This document shows, one piece after another, positions 22,063 to 25,148 of a DNA stretch of 64,000 nucleotides. The notes below the pieces were generated by a model that ran no database searches, was not told the DNA's origin, and saw nothing but the letters and a program-made list of their open reading frames with translations. Numbering within the stretch: the first letter of the stretch is position 1; each line of letters begins with the position of its first letter. The position numbers were made by a program, and so were the translations under genes. Source of the DNA: Halobacteriales archaeon YIM A00010 (GTDB taxonomy: Archaea > Halobacteriota > Halobacteria > Halobacteriales > Haloarculaceae); assembly GCA_025041175.1 (NCBI GenBank), contig JAKCFJ010000003.1, positions 372,001 to 436,000 on the forward strand, in the 5' to 3' direction.

Positions 22063-22429
22063 AGCTGTGTATCGACAGAGAACGGAGTAAATCCTTACGG
22101 TAGTCGAAATGCCTCCGTTCGATTGGATCCTCGTCCCGATACGGTTCGACAGGGTCGTTTCGAACGCTTCCCCAAAGATATAAGTTGGGTATGTGCTATC
22201 CCTCAACAGCGAGAGAATCCCGCCCTCAACGAGCGCCGGGCGTGAATTGCGTACGCTTGCTTCAACCGTCAACGTCGGTAGCTGTCCGGGATATTCCACG
22301 TTCGAAACTGTTATGTTCTCTGCCATACATAGACGATACATGGCGATTAAGACCGTTACCCGCACCCACCGCGCGAGGATTCGCAACCAGCGGCAGGTGT
22401 GTGACGGGCTTGATACGCTTGGGTTCGCC

Positions 22430-22482
22430 GTCACCAGAACCGAAGGTTCTGGTTGGCTAACGATACCTGCGGTCTCGTGAAC
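22430..22482. repeat. about 53-bp palindrome-bearing insert in tnpB, 5' side
   Basis: It contains a perfect inverted repeat ACCAGAACC-GAA-GGTTCTGGT at 22433-22453 (9-bp arms, 3-nt loop). Its edges are inferred from the tnpB reading frame that resumes on either side (LGFA and ASKLWNVARW), and its length shifts the frame. Confidence 0.6.
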
Positions 22483-23592
22483 GCCAGCAAGCTCTGGAAC
22501 GTGGCCCGCTGGACAGCGGGCCGCGTTTGGGATGCCTGCGGCCAGATTCCCGACGACGGTGTTCTCAAAGCCTACCTCAAAACCCACGAACGCTACGCGG
22601 ACCTCAACGCACAGTCCAGTCAGCGAGTTCTTGAAGAACTCGCTGAGGCGTTCACCGGGTGGTTCGGCCACCGCAACAACGGGAACGAGAAAGCGAACCC
22701 GCCCGGCTACCGCAAACACAACGGCGAACACCCGCGCTCAACGGTTACGTTCAAAGAAGACGGCTTCAAACACGACGCCAAAAACGGCTACATTCGCCTC
22801 TCGAAAGGCCGAAATACCAAGGCACACTACTCCGATTTCATTTTGTGCACCTACGAGGCCGACCCGTACGTTCTCATCGAGAACGTCCAGCAGGTCCGAG
22901 CAGTGTACGAGCACGGCGAATGGCGCTTACACATCGTGTGTCGCCACGATATCGAAGTCGAATCGCCCGGCAACGAAGTTGCCGGGGTCGACCTCGGAAT
23001 CTGCAACGTAGCTACCGTGTCGTTCGGCGACATCGCCCTGCTGTATCCCGGTGGTGTGCACAAAGAAGACGAGTACTACTTCGCGAAGAAGCGCGCCGAA
23101 ACGGACGATTCGGCGTCGCGCGAAGCACGACGCCTTGATCGAAAGCGCACCGACCGGCGGACGCACTTCTACCATGCGCTCTCGAAAGACATCGTTACTG
23201 AGTGTGTCGACCGCAAGGTCGGTACGCTCGCTGTCGGCGACCTCGCGGGAATCCGCGAGGACGGCGACGGTGGATCCAAGAACTGGGGTAAACATGGCAA
23301 CCTCGATTTGCATGGGTGGGTATTCGATCGCCTGTGGAAGATGCTCGAGTACAAGGGTGAAGCCGCCGGTATCGACGTGGTTCGCAAGGACGAGCGCGGA
23401 ACGTCGAAGTCGTGTTCGGCCTGTGGCCGAACCGACGATCGCCAGCGCGTCGAACGTGGCTTGTACGTCTGTGACGAGTGCGGGCTGGTTGCAAACGCCG
23501 ATACGAACGGAGCCGAGAATATTCGGCAGAAAGCACAAGTACCTCCAAGTCCGGCTGCTCCGCAGCCGGATAGGAGTAACGGCTGGATGGCA

Positions 23593-23647
23593 TCTCGAAA
23601 ATCACAGATTTTCGATGACTCGTCGAAAACGCTGCGCGTTTTCGAGA
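23593..23647. repeat. about 55-bp palindrome-bearing insert in tnpB, 3' side
   Basis: It holds two perfect inverted repeats: TCGAAAATC-ACA-GATTTTCGA (23595-23615) and TCGAAAACGC-TGC-GCGTTTTCGA (23623-23645). The whole insert also begins TCTCGAAAA and ends TTTTCGAGA, a 9-bp inverted repeat at its ends, with CA on both flanks. Confidence 0.65.
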
Positions 23648-23747
23648 CAGCCAGCGGTCCACCTGTTCGATCGTAGCGAGGGTCGTTTCGCCCCGCGAGA
23701 ACAGGTCGTGGACTGCGAACCCTAATATCCCAAACGCGGTCGGGAAA

Positions 23748-23767
23748 CCCCAGCGTTTACGCCGGGG
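23748..23767 (+). other. hairpin at the presumed right end of the tnpB transposon
   Basis: CCCCAGCG-TTTA-CGCCGGGG forms an interrupted stem 22 bp after the tnpB stop, where IS200/IS605-group elements keep their right-end structure and guide RNA end. The left boundary is not identified, but 22190-22339 lacks a gene. Confidence 0.45.
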
Positions 23768-23833
23768 AGGATGTCATGTGTACACTTGGTTGCAAATGGA
23801 TGTCATTCGCAGCCGACTATCGGAGGAAGTAGA

Positions 23834-25148
23834 ATGAGTGACACCGATTCAGTCGACGATACGGACGCGAACAGTGAACAAAGCGAAATCAAAGCTCTCA
23901 AACAGTGAATCACCGAGTTAGAACGCAAATACGAGGAGGCTACCACAAACCGTTCGGGAGTGACTCGGCGGCAAACCCTCGGTCTGCTCGGTGGGGGCGC
24001 GCTGTTCGGTATGGCTAGTCAGCCCGCGGTCGGAGCGGGGAGTGGTCCGAGAGCCAGTAACTCCGAGGGGGCAATGGAGCCAGACCGACGACGACGCGTT
24101 ACTCGAGCTCCCCGACCACGACGGCGTCGACGTTCAGCAGATCGAGACGGGCGCACTCAACAGCGTCCTGTACGCCCAACCGGGTGAGGTCCAGGCGAAA
24201 ATCGATCGAGTAGCCACTAGTAGCGACGGCGGTCCGAAACCGAACGCCGTCGTGAAGCTCCTTCCACAACAGACCTACGGCGAGGGCGAGGATATCTGGG
24301 TAAAACCGTGTGTCACGCTCGATTTCAACGGTGCGTTGCTAGAGGTGTCTAACGACCACAACGGGCTTTTCATCGATAACGAGTCGAAGGCAACCAACGT
24401 CAACATCGTGGTCACCCACGATGGGTACGCGTCGGACGTGATCGTTCTCGACGCGGAACGAACGTTCGATCCGGAAGCGCCCGACTGGGAGCGGGCCTAC
24501 GGACCGGACGGGATGGACACACCGGGACCCGGTGGCATCGCCCAGGGCGGGGAAAACAACGGCGTCGAAATCGACGGCGTCATCCGTGGAAACACCGCCG
24601 ATGGAACGGGGTTGGCGCTCCGACCGTACGCGGGTCAAGGGATATTCACAAACAATATCAACCTCGACATTTACCACTGCGGAACTGGCATCCTAGCCGA
24701 TACGAGCGAAGGATGGATCAACGGCGTTGACATCTGGACCTACCTCCACAACAACCGGGTGCAGATCGATCACGTGGGGGATCGACAGTTCAATATGATG
24801 ATCTACGGTCACACGCAGAACGGGTGGTACACCGATTACCATATCCGGAACAGAAACACTGCCGGCAAGGGTTCCTGTATGTTTATCGGCCAGGTCTGGG
24901 ACTCCGCGGGAGTCAACGAGAGCGCTCTCGCTGGTCCCGACATCAACGTCATCACCGATGGGCACATGGGGCGGGAGGTCACGAACAATTCCCCCGAGGC
25001 AGGCCCCGGCACGCTTGCCACGAGCTGGGAGAACGGCAAGCAAAACGTCGGCGTTGCCGAGACGGGAGACGTTTGGCAGTGGAACTACACGGGTAGCGGC
25101 GTCGAACTCCGGAAGAACGGCGATCCCGTCTGGAACGCGGGAGAGTAG
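23834..25148 (+). pseudogene. Tat-exported beta-helix protein, nonsense and frameshift
   Basis: From ATG 23834 the frame gives MSDTDSVDDTDANSEQSEIK, a TGA at 23906-23908, then ITELERKYEEA, a Tat-type signal TRRQTLGLLGGGALFGMASQ, and shifts frame near 24075-24090. The remaining 350 residues are intact: glycine- and Asn-rich strand-turn units (VKPCVTLDFNGALLEV, GVEIDGVIRGNTADGTGL, NNINLDIYHCGTGILADT) of a right-handed beta-helix, ending GVELRKNGDPVWNAGE. This is a family of exported haloarchaeal proteins, likely acting on polysaccharide. Two lesions make a sequencing error less likely but not impossible. Confidence 0.72.

Follow-up and report, generated by a model that had tools for sequence, protein, structure and literature searches.

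The window, as we call the whole 64,000-nucleotide stretch of DNA analysed here, contains a tnpB gene at positions 22340-23725 that is interrupted twice, by inserts of 53 bp and 55 bp, each made of two successive hairpins with 3-nt loops. The question is what these inserts are: copies of tiny mobile palindromes of a REP-like class, as a first-pass annotation had suggested, fused ends of IS200/IS605 elements, sequences skipped in expression, hairpins formed in place, or a host-made defence against transposons.

The architecture described in that annotation was recovered in full: two inserts of about 53-55 bp breaking tnpB, all of the hairpins with 3-nt loops in their places, the start and end of insert 2 (TCTCGAAAA...TTTTCGAGA), and frame shifts that sum to zero, as the insert lengths add up to 108 and return the last segment to the first frame. 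Insert 1 is bordered by TTCGCC and GCCAGC, insert 2 by TGGCA and CAGCC. The features are as follows.

22340..22429, plus strand: tnpB segment 1 (MAIKTVTRTHRARIRNQRQVCDGLDTLGFA), frame 2, aligning to residues 1-30 of the intact paralog L002.
22430..22482, plus strand: insert 1, a 53-bp double hairpin, GTCACCAGAACC-GAA-GGTTCTGGTTGGCTAACGATACC-TGC-GGTCTCGTGAAC (62.1 bits, covariance model R1).
22433..22453, unstranded: hairpin 1 of insert 1, with a 9 bp stem and a GAA loop.
22460..22478, unstranded: hairpin 2 of insert 1, imperfect, with one mismatch and a TGC loop, from folding.
22483..23592, plus strand: tnpB segment 2 (ASKLWN... to ...DRSNGWMA), with OrfB_IS605 and Cas12f1-like TNB domains (PF01385, E 1.6e-20; PF07282, E 4.3e-19).
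23593..23647, plus strand: insert 2, a 55-bp double hairpin lying within the second omegaRNA hairpin, in its loop (CGGCTGGATGGC...CAGCC).
23595..23615, unstranded: hairpin 1 of insert 2, TCGAAAATC-ACA-GATTTTCGA.
23623..23645, unstranded: hairpin 2 of insert 2, TCGAAAACGC-TGC-GCGTTTTCGA.
23648..23725, plus strand: tnpB segment 3 (QPAVHLFDRSEGRFAPREQVVDCEP, up to the stop), frame 2 again, 80% identical to L002 residues 402-426.
23537..23768, plus strand: omegaRNA, or sense overlapping transcript, Rfam RF02656 (sot0042; 89.5 bits, gathering score 88).

The patterns of insert 2 are expected by chance only 0.04-0.07 times per window, and the folding of both inserts gave z about -4 relative to shuffled sequences. 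The first-frame stop is the TGA within the last GTGAAC of insert 1, and the window TnpB is not readable through as a single chain; re-initiation at the GTG overlapping this TGA is conceivable from the sequence and would yield an N-terminally shortened protein. The omegaRNA stays recognisable, the interrupted match to RF02656 still exceeding the gathering score (sotRNAs have been equated with omegaRNAs, PMC12558985). Function of the TnpB protein would be lost, while the omegaRNA may persist. Downstream of tnpB, a gene with a TAT-like N-terminus (window 23834-24190) also looks broken, with a TGA following ...EIKALKQ and a shift of frame around 24080, and is a probable pseudogene.

If the segments were a normal part of tnpB, intact homologs would contain them. 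Among 30 fetched tnpB loci, which include the window itself (L074) and two carriers at the insert-1 site, 27 lack both inserts with exact borders, and the alignment to intact TnpB homologs confirmed the insert boundaries. In an uninterrupted paralog from the own genome, the two positions read GGGTTCGCCGCCAGTAAG and GGTTGGCACAGCCAGCGG, and the alignment of the relatives to the window breaks at 23592 and restarts at 23647 over DNA that is contiguous in the relatives.

Similar units are numerous elsewhere. A BLAST search with insert 1 found look-alikes at many places of the own genome, most of them in other tnpB copies and some being hairpin arrays in IS6-type (IS240 DDE) transposase genes. We counted 19 hairpin pairs in 464 kb of real sequence, against 0, 0 and 2 in three 400-kb Markov controls. 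With a covariance model, whose E-values are rough, the own genome gave 162 matches at about 91 places, and of the 97 genomes sampled from the same order, 81 had matches; in a phylum-wide search, 16 of 19 genomes of the order had matches, as compared to 4 (weak) of about 101 others. The exact class pattern, applied to 84,980 species, yielded 28 loci, all haloarchaeal by title save two contigs of one 'Euryarchaeota archaeon' MAG, while one pattern scan of viral contigs detected no units. The window inserts are two copies of one haloarchaeal palindrome family that occurs across the order and is nearly absent outside it. The REP-like class of mobile palindromes that had been proposed is supported both by the empty sites and by the about 91 genomic places. 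The double-hairpin family is unrecorded in the literature searched, which mostly excluded subscription journals, and an earlier description is possible.

Two refinements of the REP-like reading follow from the build of the unit: the hairpins form fixed pairs in head-to-head orientation, each dimer measuring about 48-59 bp and being open to tandem repetition, and the end motif is a CGTC-like YGTC, the GTAG/RAYT type of REP being unfitting. Single units are mostly 48-59 bp long, with peaks at 51, 55 and 57; they start with GTC or ATC and end with GAC, GAT or AAC, the standard unit being a GTC...GAC head-to-head dimer with the tags outside. The loops are 3 nt in 154 of 195 hairpins, and stems of 9 or 10 are observed in 143 of 195. 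The stems open with ACC/GCC...GGT/GGC, and the hairpins are joined by short, fixed linkers (TAGCA, TGCTA, TGGCTA, TTGGCTAAC).

The hairpin sequences vary between copies, with pairing kept. In a MAFFT alignment of 23 elements, changes on both sides occurred in 15 of 16 pairs, and 92.8% of cells were paired in the named structure, compared to 72% with shuffled partners and at most 46% when slid; the elements were picked by hand, which biases these counts towards structure, and in the L078 row the loop triplet was mistyped, affecting no pair. There are 61 different 7-nt arms, the commonest being found in 26 locations, a pattern that fits an exchange of entire hairpins. Since the same arms recur at up to 26 places, the kept pairing could reflect swapping of whole hairpin modules instead of selection.

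The host base preceding the unit is C or T at 90% of ends (49 isolated units), giving the edge YGTC, and CGNY flanks are present in 36% of cases against 6% expected (p 5e-18). No consistent target duplication was seen, GAC being repeated at both borders at some sites. The empty target sites are no more palindromic than random positions (p 0.93); insert 2 nevertheless sits in a hairpin loop.

Some sites have been used repeatedly. Insert-1-type units are situated at the same tnpB codon junction in two other genera (L075 and L078), with stems that differ from insert 1 in compensated ways. In the tree of the TnpB protein, built from its downstream part, the nearest kin of L075 and L078 (L077 and L076, respectively) carry no insert (support 100/98 and 100/99), and strongly supported branches force three changes at this site. 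The insert-1 site has been hit three independent times. Co-conversion of flanks was considered for this site and rejected: the flanks follow the tnpB tree, and only two near-insert bases in L078 side with L075. The insert-2 site has at least five carriers, with differing units or arrays in L006, L007, L021, C2:834770 and the window. In the sot/omegaRNA family RF02656 this site falls in the second hairpin, within its loop: the match at 23537-23768 has 56 bases at one position of the loop, against a single base in the model. In a genome that we take to be Haloquadratum walsbyi C23, the copies differ at one site, some having a unit there and others none, and units are also present in PATE-like ends. 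At the RuvC-I junction of other tnpB genes, the 55-bp insert of L009 is nearly identical to that of L013/L038 and the flanks are only about 78% identical; these inserts look as if separately inserted or converted.

By flank comparison, 40 of the 91 places lie within 700 bp of a TnpB (20) or an IS6-type (20) coding sequence. One 57-bp in-frame unit is common to several IS6 copies with identities of up to 99.6%, and the frame is still open over 231 residues in two of these copies (C4:334557 and C2:90068); this suggests that the IS spread while carrying the insert. Units also occur in enzyme genes. In-frame units add exactly 19 residues, absent from the homologs, to an AMP-binding acyl-CoA ligase (frame of 549 residues) and likewise to a PPDK-type protein (frame of 839 residues), the peptides in the L188 and L189 ORFs being different (ITGTQGVPVSSQKSKISGD vs VHESDALVGQSETWSVSDD). 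Units are found inside the open frames of a GH3 glycosidase and a cyclase-family ORF as well, and short-chain dehydrogenase-like and acetyltransferase-like genes, the families being named from reading the sequence, seem broken by units.

Several further loci of the own genome were observed. The GH3 glycosidase ORF of 785 residues (L128, C1: 2583912) has an in-frame tandem hairpin array between its N- and C-terminal GH3 domains. A 51-bp unit occupies the same codon in each of five paralogous loci from an unidentified family with the sequence MTLPLFQFRNQQGEVLNLSAVEDRDVVSKAELYHSIDVGEGLW... (L163, L117, L174, L176 and L179; C1: 23412, 931071, 1735391, 2058961 and 2632927, respectively). A 377-residue open frame with no Pfam match (L194) contains two separate in-frame 51-bp units (C2: 964184 and 964667). 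Finally, one tnpB (L180) carries three units within 0.9 kb (C1: 2671765, 2672286 and 2672527); a functional TnpB from this gene was dropped from consideration, as inserts of 55, 51 and 50 put the start and the end of the gene in different frames.

Among known palindromic elements, the nearest are the dimers of CGTC-tagged REPs (Di Nocera et al. 2013, PMC3733652) and the palindromic elements of Rickettsia. With the former the units share the YGTC edge, the outside tags, the head-to-head arrangement, stems of 8-9 bp, heterodimers with different stems, intragenic copies and the lack of a dedicated transposase. The unpaired terminal tag of these REPs (CGTC, TGTC or CCTC, the CGTC/TGTC variants being known from PMC3733652) has its counterpart in 90% C/T edges and mostly GTC/ATC ends, and head-to-head dimers predominate in both. 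However, CGTC-tagged REPs have loops of 4-5 nt, A-T pairs at the first two stem positions and a short CCA tail, whereas the units mostly have 3-nt loops (154 of 195), stems starting with ACC/GCC, and short fixed linkers with no CCA tail seen; they are also often in tandem arrays. We do not file the haloarchaeal family under CGTC-tagged REPs, because the loops, the first stem pairs and the tail differ. The CGTC-tagged REPs include Rickettsia RPE-4 and RPE-6, and no archaeal host is named in the text searched (PMC3733652).

Like Rickettsia palindromic elements (RPE), the units place a palindrome in frame within protein genes, as in the 19-residue insertions of L188 and L189. Classical RPE are about 150 bp long and encode a conserved peptide, whereas the units, at 48-59 bp, have two hairpins and encode differing peptides, and many of their copies are in transposase genes. 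REPINs with RAYT transposases are likewise mobile units made of an inverted pair of REP hairpins; in contrast to GTAG REP/REPIN, the units have no GTAG edge, association with RAYT was not seen, and ten genomes lack Y1_Tnp. Mitochondrial double-hairpin elements and byps are also mobile double hairpins inside genes, but their hosts are unrelated, and evidence of bypassing was not found for the units. Archaeal REPs of intergenic regions are listed in RepRanger, with no haloarchaeon named in the text searched (PMC12306157).

The units resemble Haloquadratum PATEs and SMR-A in being haloarchaeal, in lacking target duplication and perhaps in their concentration in IS605-type elements near terminal palindromes (PMC3119063). 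SMR-A, which we compared by its description, is twice as long as the units. The units, which are the shorter elements, were found inside PATE-like copies of the presumed H. walsbyi C23. SMR-A is about 110 bp long, has terminal inverted repeats and copies >95% identical, and PATEs carry near-terminal palindromes of IS605 elements (PMC3119063); SMR-A targets the near-terminal palindromes of IS605/PATE, and insert 2 is in an omegaRNA hairpin loop. The haloarchaeal units are most suitably regarded as a new form of mobile palindrome of the REP-like kind.

We consider it very probable that the window inserts are copies of a haloarchaeal palindromic mini-element family, each a cleanly inserting head-to-head pair of short hairpins. 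Such a unit, of about 48-59 bp, with RTC...GAY or GTC...AAC as its ends and in most cases a C or T in front, would insert at C-G-N-Y type sites without consistent target duplication; the same sites in transposase genes would be used again, and a unit could host the next one, giving tandem arrays. Two insertions would have broken one IS1341-type tnpB, the second of them in the omegaRNA loop. This mobility is read from sequence comparison. As for the mover, we tentatively suggest transit as single-stranded DNA hairpins, with the YGTC edge cut in trans by a putative HUH-type nuclease. A requirement for Y1_Tnp as mover was rejected: unit copy number correlates only weakly with Y1_Tnp count (rho 0.34), and ten genomes without any Y1_Tnp match carry 10-56 units. 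Because of these genomes, the units do not currently depend on the common IS200/IS605 transposase, which may have acted in the past. A rather doubtful proposal is that dedicated haloarchaeal machinery inserts the paired hairpins site-specifically, in a homing-like manner without a known transposase; it would revisit identical tnpB and IS6 codon junctions across lineages, enter the omegaRNA loop, swap hairpin modules among copies and supply enzymes with extra peptides.

The same data bear on the alternatives. A scenario put forward for Haloquadratum could apply to the units as well: TnpA would move terminal-only PATEs, in which the subterminal hairpins of an IS200/IS605 element are fused. In its favour, IS605-type ends in the own genome have look-alike hairpins with 3-nt loops, terminal-only PATEs of 52 bp without target duplication have been described (PMC3119063), and the weak correlation with Y1_Tnp count is in the same direction. 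This is unlikely, as a unit comprises two different hairpins and a conserved linker, whereas a single 22-bp palindrome is retained in the published terminal-only PATE, and units are also present within IS6 and enzyme genes and, in many copies, in the ten Y1_Tnp-free genomes. The bias towards TnpB and IS6 flanks could also mean that the host silences transposons by putting units into their transposase genes, a defence also suggested for Haloquadratum SMR-A; this seems quite improbable in view of the units inside enzyme genes and the near-identical IS6 copies that apparently spread with the insert aboard, and tolerance of transposons to insertions would yield an equal bias.

Even less probable is a TnpB that stays functional through removal or skipping of the inserts during expression, either as an archaeal bulge-helix-bulge intron or by ribosome bypassing as in yeast mitochondrial byps. 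The window and L075 tnpB genes are otherwise open and uneroded, and the frame is restored after both inserts; against this, in L078 the insert is accompanied by two stops and a frameshift, the take-off and landing codons do not match (GCC vs AAC for insert 1, GCA vs AGA for insert 2), and elsewhere units are in frame and open, as though plainly read through. Formation of the hairpins in place by foldback replication or mutation, with no mobile unit, would agree with the perfect arms and the lengths shifting in small steps, but it is hardly credible given identical linkers and hairpin modules at dozens of unrelated loci and clean empty sites.

Tiny palindromes that alter transposase genes, RNA-guided nuclease loci and enzymes across an archaeal order would mean that the spread of REP/RPE-like selfish DNA extends to Archaea too. 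What moves CGTC-type palindromes was still an open question in 2013 (PMC3733652), and natural repeated insertions at the same sites, together with empty sites in relatives, are material for finding this mover. Many 'frameshifted' haloarchaeal transposase genes may owe their breakage to double-hairpin units.
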